The notes below the pieces were generated by a model. That model was not told the DNA's origin, ran no database searches, and saw only the letters and a list, made by a program, of their open reading frames with translations. Source: Usitatibacter rugosus (lineage in GTDB: Bacteria; Pseudomonadota; Gammaproteobacteria; Burkholderiales; Usitatibacteraceae). Taken from it: a DNA stretch of 64,000 nt. Below, in pieces: positions 14,980-23,811 of this stretch (the first letter of the stretch is position 1; each line of letters begins with the position of its first letter). Location of the stretch: positions 1,085,419 through 1,149,418 of the forward strand of contig NZ_CP053069.1 in NCBI RefSeq assembly GCF_013003965.1, in the 5' to 3' direction. A program made the translations under genes and the position numbers.

Positions 14980-15602
14980 CCGCACAACCCGAGGACCTGG
15001 CGCAGATCACCGGCAAGACCCTGGAGCACTACAACGCTCGCGCCGCCGATTTCTGGGAAGGCACGCGCGGCCACGACGTCACGCAGAACATCAACGCCCT
15101 GCTGCGGAACATCCGCGGGACTCCGCCCTTTCGCATCCTCGATCTCGGCTGCGGCCCCGGGCGGGATCTCGTGGCGTTCCGCGACCTCGGCCACCACGCC
15201 ATCGGCCTCGAGGGCTCACCGCAGTTCGCGGCCATGGCGCGCGAGCACAGCGGCTGCGAGGTCTGGGAGCAGGACTTCCTCGCGCTCCACCTTCCCGGCG
15301 GCCATTTCAACGGCATCTTCGCCAACGCGTCGCTGTTCCACGTGCCCCGGCAGGAGCTGCCGCGCGTGTTGGGCGAGCTGCATGCGGCGCTGAAATCCGG
15401 GGGCGTGCTCTTCGCGTCCAATCCGCGCGGCAACAATGAAGAGGGATGGAATCGCGGGCGCTATGGCGCGTATCACGACCTCGAGGCGTGGCGCGCTTTC
15501 ATGCGTGCCGCGGCGTTCGAGGAGCTGGAGCATTACTATCGGCCACCGGGACTGCCGCTCGAGCAGCAACCCTGGCTCGCAACCGTGTGGAGAAAGACGT
15601 GA
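14976..15602 (+). CDS. Class I SAM-dependent methyltransferase
   Basis: 208 residues. The S-adenosylmethionine-binding motif I reads I-L-D-L-G-C-G-P-G-R-D-L (about residues 50-61), followed by the acidic residue in I-G-L-E-G-S. A Rossmann-fold methyltransferase core fills the rest. The substrate is unknown. It is coupled at both ends (ATGA with the MBL gene, GTGA with the next gene). Confidence 0.9.
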   Translation: MTAQPEDLAQITGKTLEHYNARAADFWEGTRGHDVTQNINALLRNIRGTPPFRILDLGCGPGRDLVAFRDLGHHAIGLEGSPQFAAMAREHSGCEVWEQDFLALHLPGGHFNGIFANASLFHVPRQELPRVLGELHAALKSGGVLFASNPRGNNEEGWNRGRYGAYHDLEAWRAFMRAAAFEELEHYYRPPGLPLEQQPWLATVWRKT

Positions 15603-17878: not shown

Positions 17879-18359
17879 GGATCGAAGTATATCGGCCGTA
17901 GGCTTTCTCGATGGCGTCTCGCTGGTACGAGTGGAGACGAGCGTCGATATCGACATGGCCACCGCCGATGTCTTTCATTACGCCACGGCGCCGTACCTCT
18001 GGCACACGTGGCATCCGGCCACGGCCGCCGTCTCCAACGTGCCCTCGCGGCCCATCGGCCTGGGCGAGACGGTGCGGGAAAGAATCCACGTCGGCTTGAA
18101 GCGCTTCGAAACAACTTGGACGGTGGTCGAGTGCCGCCCGCCCGACACGTGGGTCATCGTGACTGACTCGGGGCAAGGCGTGGCGCGCATCCGCTACATC
18201 GTCTCGCCACTGGCCGGGGGCAGCCGCTTCACGCGCATCCTGGAGTACCGCTCGCGGGTCTGGCCCTGGCGCTGGATCGACTCGTCGCTGATGCGGTGGA
18301 TCCTCAGCCGCCAGTCGCGGCGCGCGCTGAATCAGCTGAAGCGGGTCCTAGAGAGCTAA
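17877..18359 (+). CDS. SRPBCC-family protein (polyketide cyclase/dehydrase-like)
   Basis: 160 residues if the ATG at 17877 is used; this ATG shares the palindrome CATG with the start of the divergent peptidase, so the true start may be an in-frame GTG slightly downstream (V-E-T-S-V-D-I). The core (V-D-I-D-M-A-T-A-D-V-F-H-Y-A-T, W-H-P, G-L-G-E-T-V-R-E-R, V-V-E-C-R-P-P) fits the helix-grip START/SRPBCC fold that binds hydrophobic ligands. Function unknown. Confidence 0.75.
   Translation: MDRSISAVGFLDGVSLVRVETSVDIDMATADVFHYATAPYLWHTWHPATAAVSNVPSRPIGLGETVRERIHVGLKRFETTWTVVECRPPDTWVIVTDSGQGVARIRYIVSPLAGGSRFTRILEYRSRVWPWRWIDSSLMRWILSRQSRRALNQLKRVLES
17886..17891 (-). promoter_or_regulatory. Possible -10 box of the M28 peptidase gene
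   Basis: On the minus strand this reads TATACT, placed so that transcription would begin at or next to the ATG at 17878. No strong -35 box is seen at the proper distance. If real, the peptidase mRNA is leaderless. Confidence 0.3.
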
Positions 18360-18373
18360 GCCGATATGGAGGG

Positions 18374-19438
18374 TCACAACTCGATGACGCTTCCCTCGGA
18401 CCCTCCGTACGTGACGGTGTACGTCTTGGGTTCCAGAAGTTTTGAATCCATCCACATTTCGTTTTGAGGGGTTTGATAGTTGAAATGAAGCTCGCCACCG
18501 GCAAACGAGATGAGCTTCGCGATGGCAATGGGATTCGGATGTCCGAATCGCTTTCCATTTGTCGAGATGATGTGTCGTTTGCAGTGCATTGACGCAAGCA
18601 GCTCCCGATCGATGTTTTGGGCGCTGCCATGGTGTGGAACCTTGAACGCCGCCAACTCGGTCGGTGTCCGCACACGGCGTAATGAATCGGTCAGAACCCC
18701 GGAAAATGCATCGGCGCCGAAAAGAACGGTCTTTTCGTCGTAGCTTGCAAGGAAGGCGATGCTGCTCCCATTGGCTACCGCAGTGTCTCTCCCGACCCTG
18801 GACTCGGCGAGCAACCGTACATCAGGGGTCCCTCGCAAAACTTCGTCCTCCCACGAGCCATCCGTTTCCGGGATCGATGCGGTTTGGCCCGCTTGGATGC
18901 CGGCCTCCCGAATTTCCTCCCACCAGACCTTGGCGAGGTCTGCCAAGTGCCTTGAATACGGGGACAGCAACGTCAGCTTCATGCCCTTGAATGCTTTCTC
19001 CGGCAAGTCGCCGACGTCAGGAACAACGACCGCGTTTTCGTCAAAGCTTGTGTTCCATCGCAATCGGCGATTGAAAATCAGCTTCGATAGCTGCTCCCCA
19101 TGCCGGACGCTTCGGTCTACTTCGTCGGGATCAATGGCGGCCTTGGGTAGGTGCTGGAATCCGTTGAACCACACCTCACCGATCGACACTCCGAGGTCTT
19201 CGAGGTCGCGGAGCAGAGGTAGAGCCCCGCCGATGTGATCGGCGTCGACGTGGGTGATAACCAGCAATTCAAACCGACGTTCGTTAGGAGACAGACCTTC
19301 GATGAGAGGCCTGAGAACGTCCGAATACACGCCAGTTGGTCCGCAATCGATCAGCATGCGATTCGTCTCGCCAGCCTGCCCGTATTCGATCAGCAGCGAG
19401 TCACCGTACTCGGCGGGTAGTGCCCGAATCCGAAACAT
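18374..19438 (-). CDS. ComEC/Rec2-like MBL-fold protein (soluble), candidate defence-island component
   Basis: 354 residues, preceded by an AAGGAAC ribosome site. The metallo-beta-lactamase signature is T-H-V-D-A-D-H-I-G-G (residues 62-71: H63, D65, D67, H68) with a later V-P-H-H-G-S metal motif and an F-G-A-D-A aspartate. This is the arrangement of the ComEC/Rec2 MBL branch, but there are no membrane helices. The base composition is visibly lower in GC than the neighbours on the left. It is divergent from the CHAT operon at 19538, 99 bases away. Proteins of this branch may act on nucleic acids or nucleotides; whether it is an effector, a regulator or a signal-degrading enzyme is inference. 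Confidence 0.85.
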   Translation of the reverse strand: MFRIRALPAEYGDSLLIEYGQAGETNRMLIDCGPTGVYSDVLRPLIEGLSPNERRFELLVITHVDADHIGGALPLLRDLEDLGVSIGEVWFNGFQHLPKAAIDPDEVDRSVRHGEQLSKLIFNRRLRWNTSFDENAVVVPDVGDLPEKAFKGMKLTLLSPYSRHLADLAKVWWEEIREAGIQAGQTASIPETDGSWEDEVLRGTPDVRLLAESRVGRDTAVANGSSIAFLASYDEKTVLFGADAFSGVLTDSLRRVRTPTELAAFKVPHHGSAQNIDRELLASMHCKRHIISTNGKRFGHPNPIAIAKLISFAGGELHFNYQTPQNEMWMDSKLLEPKTYTVTYGGSEGSVIEL

Positions 19439-19537
19439 GGGTGTTCCTTCACAGTCGCGGTAACATATTTCCGCGTCGTCCCAGGAGACGCTTGAGCATG
19501 CATCCCCGGAAATTGGCGCCGCCAGGGAGAACGAAAA

Positions 19538-20581
19538 ATGAAGCTACTCTTTGTTGCGAGCAATCCGCAAGATCAGAAAACATTGGCCCTGGAACGGGAA
19601 ATTACCGAAATCCAGCGGCGGATTGGTTGGCAATCGACGGGAACCGTCGAATTCACTTTCCTGCCCGCTCTCGCAGTTGAGGATTTCACGACTACCCTCT
19701 TGAAGGTGCGACCGGATGTCGTCCACCTGTCCGCGCACGGAGACAACGAAGCTCTTCGCATGGCCAGTGCGAGCGGTAAGTCGATAGAGATCACCGGCGA
19801 AATCCTTGCTGCCATGCTGACAGTCCGAGTTCGCCCGAAGCTGGTTTACGTCAATGCGTGTAACTCCGCCGCGATAGCGAAGGAGATCGCCAAGGTTGTG
19901 CCAATGGCGATTGGATCGACGGCCTCAATCGAAAACGGTGCTGCCCGTGCCACTGCCATCGTGTTCTACGAGGGCCTTTTGTCGGGCTCCACCGTGACCG
20001 AAGCGTTTCACGCTTCTAGCGCCCTTCTGTCCGCTCTTTCGGGAGGAACAGCGCAATCTGCGCTATTTCCAAGTGGAAGCACCGATCTCCCCGCCACCGT
20101 GTCGCTCGTCCACCTTCCGAAGATCGTCGCGAAATTTCCTGAAAAAACCAACGGCGCGATCGACTACTCCGCTGACAAATTTGGGGAGTTCGACCTGGAC
20201 ATCGGGCTGGCGGGATGTCCAGCCGACACTGTACAAATAGTGTTCTTCACCGACGACGAGACCATGTCCGATGAAGATGAAGGTTGGCTTGATAACTACC
20301 TGGAATCGGACGAGGAGAGAGCTGCGAGTTACGCGAAGATTGTTCGCGGATATCCGGTCAGGGGGAGAATCTGGTGCGAGTCGGTTTGGACCGCGGCGGG
20401 CGACTTTCGCATCTTTGCGACGGGGTCGACGGGAACCGGTCGTACCTTTTCAGCGTACGCGATGGTCTGTGATGCGTTGGAGGCGGGCCTGAGAACCAGC
20501 GAGTACCAGAAGCTCAGGAGCGCCGACCGCGAGGGCATTGCGGCCGCGATCTCGAAACTCAGGGAAAACGATGGGAGCTGA
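19538..20581 (+). CDS. CHAT-domain cysteine protease (caspase-like)
   Basis: 347 residues behind an AGGGAGAA ribosome site. The opening M-K-L-L-F-V-A-S-N-P-Q-D with L-A-L-E-R-E-I-T-E-I is the N-terminal strand-helix pattern common in bacterial CHAT proteins. The catalytic dyad is visible as H-L-S-A-H-G (His67) and Y-V-N-A-C-N-S (Cys108), 41 residues apart as expected. Residues ~200-347 form a second, unrecognised domain with a very acidic loop (T-D-D-E-T-M-S-D-E-D-E) and an F-D-L-D-I-G start. CHAT proteases cleave partner proteins in several bacterial immune systems. It is the first gene of a lower-GC operon with an NDT-like and a TIR-like gene. Confidence 0.85.
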   Translation: MKLLFVASNPQDQKTLALEREITEIQRRIGWQSTGTVEFTFLPALAVEDFTTTLLKVRPDVVHLSAHGDNEALRMASASGKSIEITGEILAAMLTVRVRPKLVYVNACNSAAIAKEIAKVVPMAIGSTASIENGAARATAIVFYEGLLSGSTVTEAFHASSALLSALSGGTAQSALFPSGSTDLPATVSLVHLPKIVAKFPEKTNGAIDYSADKFGEFDLDIGLAGCPADTVQIVFFTDDETMSDEDEGWLDNYLESDEERAASYAKIVRGYPVRGRIWCESVWTAAGDFRIFATGSTGTGRTFSAYAMVCDALEAGLRTSEYQKLRSADREGIAAAISKLRENDGS

Positions 20582-21026
20582 TCGATCGGTCGTTAGACGC
20601 CGCTGGGACGTATTTTTGGCCGCCGGACTGCGTCAGCCGGGGTGCATGCGCCGTAACGCAGAAATCGCGGTTATTGTTCGAGCGGCCGGGATGTCTCTGT
20701 TTTCGCCACAAGAGCAACTGCCGCTGGATGCGAAGGTGACACCCGTCGAAATCGTTGAACACAACCGAAACGGCCTTCTTGCGTGTTCGATCGTGATATT
20801 CGTTCCAGAGGGCGCAGGCGCGGGGGTCTATTTCGAGGTGGGCATGGCCGAGGCGCTTGGAAGGATTGTTGTGGCGTTCGGGCCACCGCCTGCTCCAACT
20901 GAAGGAGCGGTGCCTCTTGGACATTGGCTTCGCATTCCGCCTGCGATGCGTGCTGACTCGCTCGACGAACTGGGTCGGATATTGCGTCGTGTGAGGCAGG
21001 ATAGTTTCGAGAGCGCCGATGGCTAG
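20571..21026 (+). CDS. Nucleoside 2-deoxyribosyltransferase-like protein
   Basis: 151 residues from the ATG at 20571, overlapping the CHAT gene by 11 bases. The W-D-V-F-L-A-A-G strand, the G-M-S-L-F-S-P segment, L-L-A-C-S-I-V-I-F-V-P and the E-V-G-M-A-E-A-L-G helix (Glu89) match the nucleoside 2-deoxyribosyltransferase fold, which is related to the TIR/SLOG group of nucleotide-processing domains. Such domains cleave glycosidic bonds of nucleosides or NAD-like molecules. In this operon a role in making or breaking a nucleotide signal, or in depleting NAD or nucleosides, is plausible but unproven. Confidence 0.75.
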   Translation: MGADRSVVRRRWDVFLAAGLRQPGCMRRNAEIAVIVRAAGMSLFSPQEQLPLDAKVTPVEIVEHNRNGLLACSIVIFVPEGAGAGVYFEVGMAEALGRIVVAFGPPPAPTEGAVPLGHWLRIPPAMRADSLDELGRILRRVRQDSFESADG

Positions 21027-21957
21027 CCCCCGTCTCTTGATTGTCTGCGGAAGCGCTGGCGATGCTCTCGCTCGGGAAGTGCTGTCCGAGTTCGATGACG
21101 CCTTCGACGTCAGCCAAGGAATCTATCGCCTGAGCGGTACGTCGTCGATGGAAGATCTTGAACAACTTGCCGCAAATGCCGATTGTGCAATCCTGGCATC
21201 GACACGTGAGGAGATCCTCGGTGGCCGTACCAAGGCGGCCATCGCAGCTCACGACTCACTGCTCTTCGCGCTGGGCATCCTCGTGGCACGGCTGGGTGCT
21301 CGCCACTGCTTCGTATTGGCTGACAGCATAGACGCGAAAACATTCCTGCCTGCGGAGCGCTTTGGCGTACGCATCGAGTACGTCAGCGGGGCTGCGCATG
21401 AGCGCACAAACCGATTCGACAAGGCGTGCAGCGCGATTCGTCGCCGGTTGGTCTCCAGTTGCAAAGCAAAGCATGCCAACCATGCAACCCTGCGTTGCAA
21501 GACTATCAATGATCGACTTGAACTCTCGGCCAGGGCGGCGAGTCTTCCTTCGACTCCCGAAGACATAAGGGCATTCTTGTTCGGGGTCGAGTCGAACGAC
21601 TTGATCTGCATGGGCGCGTGGTCACTGCATAAGCGCTGTGAGGATATCAATGTGCTCCAGTTCAATGCAAAGGAGCATGCTGACTTGGCTGTGATCAAGG
21701 CGTGGCGCATGCGACAAGTTCAGGCGGCCAAGATTCCTCGGCCGTCCCAAGCAGCACTGGCGAAGGACATAAAGGTCGAACCCGGACTGAAGTTCGTGCT
21801 GGCCGCGCCGGTTGTGGTGGGTCCGACGATCTGGGGTGTCGTGGATTTCGATACAACGACGGCAAGTGGGGCCAAGATTCTCGCAAGCCCATCGGCTCTC
21901 ACAGTCGTACTCAAGCTGGCGGAGCAGATCGCTCAGATCGTGGAGGCACGTTCCTAG
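21019..21957 (+). CDS. TIR-like (CAP12/PF10137-type) domain fused to GAF-like domain
   Basis: 312 residues; the ATG overlaps the previous stop by eight bases. Residues ~5-125 look like the TIR-like domain of predicted nucleotide-binding proteins: A-N-A-D-C-A-I-L-A-S-T, then H-D-S-L-L-F-A-L-G-I-L-V-A-R-L-G-A-R-H-C-F-V-L-A. In that family the second block normally reads N-V-x-F-E-L-G with a catalytic Glu; here the residue is Ala84, so NADase activity is doubtful. Residues ~155-312 end in a GAF-like sequence (L-A-A-P-V-V-V-G-P-T-I-W-G-V-V-D-F-D) that may bind a small ligand. A sensor role for the operon is a reasonable inference. Its stop adjoins the convergent ABC exporter gene with no gap. Confidence 0.7.
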   Translation: MASPRLLIVCGSAGDALAREVLSEFDDAFDVSQGIYRLSGTSSMEDLEQLAANADCAILASTREEILGGRTKAAIAAHDSLLFALGILVARLGARHCFVLADSIDAKTFLPAERFGVRIEYVSGAAHERTNRFDKACSAIRRRLVSSCKAKHANHATLRCKTINDRLELSARAASLPSTPEDIRAFLFGVESNDLICMGAWSLHKRCEDINVLQFNAKEHADLAVIKAWRMRQVQAAKIPRPSQAALAKDIKVEPGLKFVLAAPVVVGPTIWGVVDFDTTTASGAKILASPSALTVVLKLAEQIAQIVEARS

Positions 21958-23811
21958 CTATCGATACCCCGCGGCCTGCAGCTCGAAGAGCTCCGCGTAA
22001 CGCCCGCCCTGGGCGAGCAGCTCCGCATGCGTACCGGTCGCCTCGACCTTGCCGTCGCCCAGCACCACGATGCGGTCGGCCATGCGCACGCTCGAGAAGC
22101 GGTGCGAGATCAGCACCGCGGTCTTGCCCTCCGAGAGCTCCTTGAAGCGCTGGAAGACCTCGAACTCGGCGCGTGCATCGAGCGCGGCCGTGGGCTCGTC
22201 GAGGATCAGCACCTGCGCATCGCGCATGTAGGCCCGTGCGATGGCGATCTTCTGCCACTCGCCGCCGGACAAATCCACGCCGGTCTTGAAGCGCCGGCCA
22301 ATCAGCTGCTCGTAGTGCTCGGGGAGCTTCGCGATCACTTCGTCCGCCAGGCTTCGTTCCGCGGCGAGCTCGATCCTCGCCTGGTCCTTGCGAGCTTCGA
22401 TCAAGCCGACCGCGATGTTGTCGCCGGCACTCAGATGGAAGCGCACGAAGTCCTGGAAGATCACGCCGATATTCCGGCGCAGCTCGAAGAGGTCGTACTC
22501 CTTGAGGTCGTGGCCATCGAGGAGGATTCGCCCCTCGTCCGGGTCGTAGAGGCGCGCGAGCAGCTTCACCAGCGTTGTCTTGCCCGCGCCGTTCTCTCCG
22601 ACGAGTGCGAGCACCTCGCCGGCACGCAGGTTGAACGAGAGGTTGCGCACGGCCCAACGCTCGGCGCCCGGATACTGGAATCCCACGTCCTCGAACGTGA
22701 AGCCCTCGCGAATCGGGTTCGGGAACGGCCGCGGCTTCTTGGGGGAGACGATTTCGGGCTTGATCTCGAAGAACGAGAAGAGATCGTCGAGGTACATCGC
22801 CTGTCCCGCCACGGTCGAGAAGCCGGAGAGGAATTGCTCGAGCAAGCCGCGCAGCCGGAGGAACGAGCCCGACAGGAACGTGAGGTTGCCGATGGTGAAG
22901 TCGCCGTGGAGCGTGCGCCACACGATGTACGCGTAGGCGAAGTAATACGCGACGGTGGAGATCGCGGTGAGCACGCTTCCCCACGCGGCGCGGCGCACGG
23001 CGATCTTCCGGTTGGCGCGGAAGAAGCTGACCGCCAATTCCCGATAGCGCTCGATCAGGAAGCCGTGCAGCCCGAAGATCTTCACTTCCTTCGCGGTGTC
23101 GGCGCCGGCGGCCACCTGGCGCACGTAGTCGAGCTCGCGGCGCTCCGGGGCGCGGTAGTAGTTGAGCCAGTACGACTGCGCGTTGAAGTAGAGCTCGCCG
23201 AGGAAGGACGGAATGAGCGCCACGGCGAGGAGCGCGATCAGCCACGGCGCATAGGCGGCCAGGCCCACGACGAGGCTCGCGATGGTCACCAGGTCCTGCG
23301 CCTGCCCGAAAAGCTGCGTCATGAGTCCCGTGCGGCCCGCCGCCTGCGTGCGGGCGCGCTCGAGGCGGTCCTGGAACTCGCTGTCCTCGAAATCCTCGAG
23401 GTCCAGGGTCGCGGCATGTTCCATCAGTCGCACGCTGGTCGTCGTGCTGAGGCGCTCCCCCAGCAGCGAATCCAGCAGCGAGATGACGCGGCCGAGGAGG
23501 TCCGAGCCGATGCCCAATGCGAACTCGAGGGCGAGCAGCAGGATCACGCGATCCAGGAGCCCGGAGTGATACCAGGCGATGGCGGTCGTGCCGGGCGAGG
23601 GGATTCTCGTGAGGCGCACTACCTCGTCGATGATCAATGCGGCGATGTAGAGCGCCGCCACCGGCAACAGCGAGCGAATCAGGCGCAGCACGATCTCCGC
23701 CGACGCGATGCCCGGGCTCGTCTCCCAGACGAGCTTCAGGAACGGCGGGAGGTTGCGCAGCGCACCGAGGCGCTGGCGGAACGACTGCGGAGGTGGCGCG
23801 GGCGGAGGCAT
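21958..23811 (-). CDS. ABC exporter, fused permease and ATPase
   Basis: 617 residues: an N-terminal six-helix transmembrane domain (about residues 30-330) and a C-terminal ATPase. Walker A is G-E-N-G-A-G-K-T-T, the signature is D-L-S-G-G-E-W-Q-K-I-A and Walker B is V-L-I-L-D-E-P-T-A-A-L-D; the switch histidine is in L-I-S-H-R-F. As a half-transporter it should dimerise and export lipids, peptides or drugs. Pro/Ala-rich N-terminus. No substrate clue in the neighbours; GC content is back to the genome norm. Confidence 0.92.
   Translation of the reverse strand: MPPPAPPPQSFRQRLGALRNLPPFLKLVWETSPGIASAEIVLRLIRSLLPVAALYIAALIIDEVVRLTRIPSPGTTAIAWYHSGLLDRVILLLALEFALGIGSDLLGRVISLLDSLLGERLSTTTSVRLMEHAATLDLEDFEDSEFQDRLERARTQAAGRTGLMTQLFGQAQDLVTIASLVVGLAAYAPWLIALLAVALIPSFLGELYFNAQSYWLNYYRAPERRELDYVRQVAAGADTAKEVKIFGLHGFLIERYRELAVSFFRANRKIAVRRAAWGSVLTAISTVAYYFAYAYIVWRTLHGDFTIGNLTFLSGSFLRLRGLLEQFLSGFSTVAGQAMYLDDLFSFFEIKPEIVSPKKPRPFPNPIREGFTFEDVGFQYPGAERWAVRNLSFNLRAGEVLALVGENGAGKTTLVKLLARLYDPDEGRILLDGHDLKEYDLFELRRNIGVIFQDFVRFHLSAGDNIAVGLIEARKDQARIELAAERSLADEVIAKLPEHYEQLIGRRFKTGVDLSGGEWQKIAIARAYMRDAQVLILDEPTAALDARAEFEVFQRFKELSEGKTAVLISHRFSSVRMADRIVVLGDGKVEATGTHAELLAQGGRYAELFELQAAGYR

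Follow-up and report, generated by a model that had tools for sequence, protein, structure and literature searches.

The closest described relatives of the locus considered here are nucleases of the metallo-beta-lactamase (MBL) fold that are held inactive until a protease acts on them. In the parts of Tuck et al. 2025 (PMC12799240) on which we draw, such MBL proteins are inactive pro-nucleases with two gating insertions; trypsin-like proteases cut them open in Hachiman and AVAST, and in Canu the caspase complex CanAB converts CanC into a potent nuclease, with the two catalytic sites, and likewise the predicted cut sites, needed for defence, and with conserved Gly residues proposed as the sites of caspase cleavage. 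The same parts add that proteases of 'other diverse families' accompany related nucleases, and CHAT may be among these families; the main text, to which the count was confined, has 0 occurrences of the word 'CHAT'. Here we describe a four-gene insert of Usitatibacter rugosus, analyzed within a window of 64,000 nucleotides (NZ_CP053069.1, positions 1,085,419 to 1,149,418), that encodes an MBL protein of this kind, a CHAT protease, a nucleoside 2-deoxyribosyltransferase-like (NDT-like) protein and a TIR-like domain joined to a GAF domain. Judging from the sequence, we assign a probability of about 0.55 to the insert being a defence cassette in which CHAT activates a gated nuclease. The idea of a protease unlocking a nuclease is already known; a CHAT protease with these partners was not found described in the literature searched. 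In window coordinates, the features are:

18374..19438, minus strand: MBL-fold gene, predicted gated pro-nuclease (CanC/Avs1a/HamM-like), 354 aa; from Pfam, PADLOC, tree and Foldseek.
19031..19156, minus strand: predicted gating insertion 1 of the MBL protein, residues ~95-136, with VRHGE at 111-115; from extra positions relative to ComEC, predicted local distance difference test (pLDDT) scores below 50 at 95-103 and 131-136, and alignment.
18782..18877, minus strand: predicted gating insertion 2, residues ~188-219, with LRGT at 201-204; from pLDDT below 50 at 188-192 and 194-219, and alignment.
19439..19537, no strand: divergent intergenic region between the MBL and CHAT genes, 99 bp.
19538..20581, plus strand: CHAT protease, 347 aa, with the CHAT domain at ~1-185 and a beta-rich, possibly Ig-like C-terminal domain at ~190-347.
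20571..21026, plus strand: NDT-like protein, 151 aa from ATG 20571, with Glu89 retained at 20835-20837.
21019..21957, plus strand: TIR-like (Cap12-like) domain joined to GAF, with Ala84 replacing Glu at 21268-21270.

The MBL protein belongs to Pfam PF00753 (1e-9) and matches the PADLOC profiles LmuA (2.5e-68), Avs1a (1.4e-41) and RTasMBL (4e-41). Its solved relatives are ComEC nuclease domains, and in the alignment the ComEC-type metal residues H63, D65, D67, H68, D243 and H269 are all kept. With the AlphaFold2 model (pLDDT 71, 3 sequences), the top Foldseek match in the PDB was the ComEC nuclease domain 9ic4 (E 6.5e-12). Between the two ComEC motif blocks the MBL family model has 134 positions, as against 62 residues in 9ic4, and the ~70 extra positions are likely to be the gates. 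Segments of at least 3 residues with pLDDT below 50 are confined to the four places listed above, 95-103, 131-136, 188-192 and 194-219, and 97 further residues score 50-70. Because of the PADLOC and NCBIfam matches, the gate-like extra stretches and the protease neighbors of its relatives, the protein is best explained as a protease-activated DNase, as a matter of predicted function. An earlier note on this DNA had cast it as either a signal-degrading or an effector partner; it stands as an effector candidate, the role of signal phosphodiesterase was dropped in favor of the matches to protease-linked DNases, and the protein proved to be of a much better known kind (the LmuA/Avs1a/RTasMBL family) than that note supposed.

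The CHAT protease (Pfam PF12770, 3.9e-8) retains its catalytic dyad, with His67 in an SAHG motif (19736..19738, plus strand) and Cys108 in an NAC motif (19859..19861, plus strand). Here the earlier note was borne out: all four open reading frames (ORFs) lie where it placed them and agree in Pfam family, the dyad is the one it had named, and its view of the cassette as defence-like, with a CHAT protease that looks active, is supported by the sequence. Seven strands are predicted after residue 190, in a block with pLDDT 26-53 (model from 2 sequences), and the VIA rows for CHAT end by residue 192. Foldseek of the CHAT model returned nine MALT1 chains over 369-394 columns including gaps (E 2e-7 to 1.5e-4, root mean square deviation 14-16 A). 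Relatives were few: the protein matched in 4 of 398 genomes of the phylum, its own among them, and the other three matched in the CHAT domain only; 53 plasmid records matched, one covering at least 80%, and the C-terminal part alone found the same single record. Searches of viral contigs returned none (0/27 stretches with the protein, 0/125 with the profile). With the profile, 2 of 64 stretches of genome contigs matched, that of Hoeflea (L020) at full length and the other in the CHAT domain only, as were both of the two matches among 385 genomes of the class of G425. Within the four insert proteins, no Pfam match was found at E up to 1 for trypsin, STAND/AAA, C14, cyclase, SLOG, macro, SAVED, TPR or STING, and a PhoH-like match of CHAT at 0.25 is noise.

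The relatives of the MBL protein were then considered for their neighbors, in counts that are samples and closeness-limited scans, with a protease sought within two genes of the MBL. At 1e-30 the MBL profile matched 5 genomes among 369 of the class and 6 among 398 of the phylum; the own genome is in both counts, which leaves 9 others. Among these a trypsin-like protease was found in three (L061-L063), a caspase in two (L045, L060) and a CHAT-TPR-S protein in one (L043, 4794-7831). In L043, from a further genome of this class, the MBL gene abuts the CHAT-TPR-S gene (CHAT 1.2e-18), making up a second pair of CHAT and nuclease that merits a study of its own. Plasmids gave 59 records matching the window MBL, of which 16 were opened; a caspase was present in 8 (7 by record annotation, L052 by Pfam) and a trypsin in 2 (L055, L057). 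The relatives in L011, L012, L014, L016, L017 and L019 sit in loci of caspase, unknown gene and MBL, and the caspase-type locus of L017 is followed by a CHAT gene as well. Thus the conserved co-location that the earlier note had looked to was found in part: MBL with a protease is common in the sampled relatives and MBL with CHAT occurs once more, in L043, but the full set of four was not refound.

Several other genes recur at these loci. S8 family peptidases are annotated after the MBL in L012 (8087-11779), L017 (10185-13765) and L054 (10403-13077), at distances from directly adjoining (L012) up to ~3.3 kb (L054), and are accompanied by an ATPase gene in L012 and L017. Proteins of ~850-890 residues stand directly before the MBL in L015 (4398-6983), L018 (4328-6985), L053 (3440-5989) and L058 (3451-5991); those of L015 and L018, the two of the four that were scanned, had no Pfam match, and they perhaps represent an unrecognized protease family. 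The large MBL neighbors in L044 and L046 are protease-like by eye only, and neither was counted as a protease: the 559-aa neighbor in L044, caspase/C13-like by eye, found no match, and the 1091-aa neighbor in L046, CHAT-like by eye, had no support from Pfam, hhalign or the PDB. Lipase-like genes occur in or near several MBL-protease loci, as patatin in L011 (3483-4520) and DUF2235 in L012 (3241-4287) by annotation, Tle1-like in L043 (7885-9060) by Pfam, and patatin-like by eye in L045 (3157-4464), L059 (5825-7018) and L060 (5366-6583). Like the alpha/beta-hydrolase-like gene found beside CHAT relatives, these are possibly a second protease-activated effector.

In the tree of the MBL proteins, the window MBL falls among the caspase- and CHAT-linked members, with the trypsin-linked ones on a side of their own (93/91); the labels of L041 (trypsin, not by Pfam) and L044 (caspase in the tree, unlabelled in the column tally) were assigned by eye. 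The alignment left out matches weaker than 1e-40, namely L042 and the second matches in L060 and L054, and its starts were set by a script rule that truncated L040 at its N-terminus. Gly occupies column 110, four positions ahead of the near-invariant Gly114, in 8 of 10 caspase-linked, 1 of 7 trypsin-linked and 6 of 9 unlabelled MBLs and in 0 of 2 CHAT-linked ones, the window MBL having Ser; column 113 is His in both CHAT-linked MBLs (RHG, KHG) and in 0 of 26 others. This pattern, noticed post hoc with n=2 and assuming that column 110 is the cut-site Gly of Canu, hints at gates adapted to a different protease.

The remaining two proteins may supply the sensing. The NDT-like protein (Nuc_deoxyrib_tr, PF05014, 9.4e-8) keeps the catalytic Glu89, and the Asp residues that the L029 homolog has in its ADLDGL and GGDAG segments, which we take to have roles in the active site, are Asn, Asn and Gly here. 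The TIR domain (CAP12-PCTIR_TIR, PF10137, 4e-5) lies 0.6 bits and the GAF domain (PF01590, 4e-4) 1.0 bits below the Pfam cut-off, with PADLOC supporting the TIR at 1.3e-12. Aligned to the Cap12 chains 7un8 and 9lmq, which both read FEFG, the protein reads FALG, so that the catalytic Glu is replaced by Ala84; two TIR homologs from the same order keep ELG. We therefore dropped the TIR as an NADase, and regard it as likelier that the domain serves as a receptor or pseudoenzyme than that it makes a signal. A kinship of NDTs with TIR NADases, in sequence or in the design of the active site, is described in the portions consulted of PMC11204291 and PMC13174449, the former likening NDT active sites to that of Thoeris ThsB2. 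Given this kinship, the kept Glu89 and the lost TIR Glu, the NDT-like protein would be expected to carry any chemistry and the TIR-GAF protein to bind or sense. The TIR-like/GAF-like architecture claimed in the earlier note was thus recovered, albeit slightly below the Pfam cut-offs and with its catalytic Glu gone; its suggestion that the pair makes or reads a nucleotide signal loses the TIR as maker and leaves the NDT-like protein as the likelier source of any signal. Neither the order genomes nor the plasmid and viral scans yielded a relative of the TIR-GAF fusion: 3 of 399 order genomes matched, including its own, the other two in the TIR only; viral contigs gave 0 of 14 stretches, and plasmids 0 at 1e-5 and, at E up to 5, 4 records, the best at 4e-4. 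The single plasmid record matched by the NDT was judged unrelated, the NDT being inside a PfkB-NDT-like protein by a QueC-like gene; in this Hyphomicrobiales plasmid (L029, 6170-8629) the fusion is followed by QueC-like and nitroreductase-like genes, by eye.

Taken as a CHAT-activated cassette, the insert could work as follows. The MBL protein would be made as an autoinhibited DNase, its active site covered by the two insertions. Upon infection or stress, the sensing or regulatory module of NDT-like and TIR-like/GAF proteins would let CHAT become active; CHAT would then cut at least one of the two gates, releasing a nuclease that degrades DNA and so stops or kills the cell. We infer that CHAT cuts this MBL, where the cuts would fall, that CHAT is under the control of the NDT-like and TIR-GAF proteins, and that the result would be defence against phage. 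A more detailed cascade can be envisioned, which we consider rather unlikely, where the NDT-like enzyme senses an infection-altered nucleotide and the dead TIR-like/GAF receptor releases CHAT, with its Ig-like tail, to open the gated DNase; the NDT might complete an active site together with this receptor or feed it a ligand, and CHAT might be a general activator with exchangeable pro-effectors, a nuclease here and an alpha/beta-hydrolase in rhizobia.

Among known systems, Canu (KaeCanABC), as far as the cited sections of PMC12799240 describe it, is alike in having a same-family MBL pro-nuclease with two predicted gating insertions beside a cysteine protease. It is unlike in that the protease here is CHAT (PF12770) and not a C14 caspase, no gene stands in CanB's place between protease and MBL (no sequence search was aimed at CanB), NDT-like and TIR-like/GAF proteins are added, the MBL gene is divergent, and the Gly found at position 110 of 8/10 caspase-linked MBLs is Ser. 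The cysteine proteases in this comparison are both of clan CD. Canu carries an Ig-like domain behind its protease domain, to which the beta-rich block at the C-terminus of the CHAT protein may correspond. As Canu is defined by its caspase, the cassette, judged by its genes, is not a member. AVAST type I (Avs1) and the nuclease-protease forms of Hachiman, Lamassu and DRT share a related MBL (the Avs1a, LmuA and RTasMBL profiles), but the insert proteins have no trypsin match; the AVAST type I protease is trypsin-like and fused to a STAND NTPase, neither of which was matched in the insert proteins, the flanks being read by eye only. SAVED-CHAT (8tl0) and other CRISPR CHAT proteases differ in that no SAVED or TPR match was found and no CRISPR genes were seen in the insert. 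The TIR effectors of CBASS Cap12 and Pycsar share the TIR subfamily PF10137; here the catalytic Glu is Ala, a GAF is C-terminal, and the insert proteins have no cyclase or STING match. Type IV Thoeris, which runs from TIR to a caspase-like protease, likewise joins a TIR-type protein with such a protease, whereas here the TIR is without its Glu, the protease is CHAT and the MBL nuclease is separate.

The four genes, all with open reading frames, fill a low-GC stretch, 18360-21957. As the earlier note had seen, GC is lower here, 57-61% in the four 1-kb bins of the insert against 65-69% in the bins at 13-18 kb and 22-26 kb, some other window bins also being low at ~61-62%; GC content at third codon positions (GC3) is 0.65-0.66 for the MBL, CHAT and TIR-GAF genes and >0.8 for most other called genes. 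The CHAT, NDT and TIR-GAF genes look like one operon because they overlap, by 11 bases (with the start at ATG 20571, more likely than TTG 20538) and by 8 bases. In 18300-22050 no sigma-70-like site was found, where 1.6 would be expected by chance, and nine terminator-like hairpins were present against 3.9 expected from shuffles, all inside the four genes. Counting the own genome, four of the six genus genomes carry the ABC-transporter gene at 21958-23811, and its flank was compared in the three others (G152, G022, G765). G152 retains both this gene and the gene ending near 18358, with ~3.6 kb of different genes between them (L026, 4213-7796; sigma-factor-like, cupin-like and globin-like by eye). 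G022 has a short open frame and then a methyltransferase gene matching window 14988-15590, and in G765 a luciferase-like gene is next, by eye. At the same place in the three sisters the insert had no BLASTN match of >100 columns, the only matches reported. Since the sisters carry other genes there, the insert occupies a variable site, and by these comparisons it was apparently acquired by U. rugosus.

A number of observations weigh against a CHAT-activated nuclease. The gating loops and the CHAT C-terminal domain rest on low-confidence models, from 3 and 2 sequences, and no second copy of the four-gene set was found in the sampled genomes, plasmids and viral contigs, which are no full census. 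In S. fredii (L010) and Hoeflea (L020), which hold the two full-length CHAT relatives, the partner gene is alpha/beta-hydrolase-like and the 15 kb examined contain no MBL. The MBL and CHAT genes are divergently transcribed, as against same-strand pairs in the opened loci of relatives. No recognized protease lies within two genes of the MBL in 3 of the 9 genome loci (L044, L046 and L059, the last ending at a contig edge) or in 6 of the 16 plasmid loci, whose neighbors were scanned incompletely (L053 and L058 outside the Pfam scan, L054 and L056 in part). The tree sister of the window MBL is L044 (91/87), which has no recognized CHAT neighbor, and the two CHAT-linked MBLs do not group; therefore either the CHAT pairing arose more than once or the picture is blurred by weak support. 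Lastly, the flanks, read by eye, look like ordinary or metabolic genes (the family scan covered the insert proteins only), and the defence-island setting raised in the earlier note was dropped.

Of the alternatives, the one that survives best, unlikely as we hold it to be, is that the insert combines two modules with no relation to each other: an MBL pro-nuclease left alone after loss of its protease, and a CHAT/NDT/TIR-GAF operon directed at some target of its own. The divergent orientation, the CHAT relatives that stand without an MBL beside a hydrolase-like gene, and the different content of the site in G152 would all fit; yet both sides share the same low GC3, neither is present at this place in the three sisters, an MBL adjoining CHAT recurs in L043, and a gated MBL without its protease would presumably have no known route to being switched on. 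A Thoeris-like cascade, where the TIR or NDT makes a NAD- or nucleotide-derived signal for a caspase-like CHAT with general targets, with the MBL as an accessory for breaking that signal down, seems improbable. A precedent is the TIR-to-caspase signalling that Rousset et al. 2025 reportedly describe. The Cap12 type of the TIR, the Glu kept in the NDT-like protein and the resemblance of NDT active sites to that of ThsB2 (PMC11204291, in the part drawn on) speak for such a cascade, against which stand Ala84, the match of the MBL to protease-linked DNases and the lack, among the four insert proteins, of cyclase, SLOG or macro matches (Pfam, E up to 1). That the genes are decayed or housekeeping, with no role in defence, is very improbable: the whole set is without relatives found, the flanks look metabolic by eye and the TIR has lost its catalytic residue, but all four frames are open, three of them overlapping as in an operon, the CHAT and MBL catalytic residues are retained, and the stretch is absent from the sisters examined.

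If the insert is indeed a CHAT-activated gated-nuclease cassette, the proteases that unlock this nuclease family would extend from the trypsin-like and caspase types to CHAT, which belongs to the clan of the caspases as a branch related to separase. The sensing module, consisting of an NDT-like protein and a dead TIR-GAF protein, would then be unlike those of Hachiman, AVAST and Canu. The occurrence of the CHAT family beside an alpha/beta-hydrolase-like gene suggests, in turn, that protease-activated lipases may be a second class of pro-effectors.

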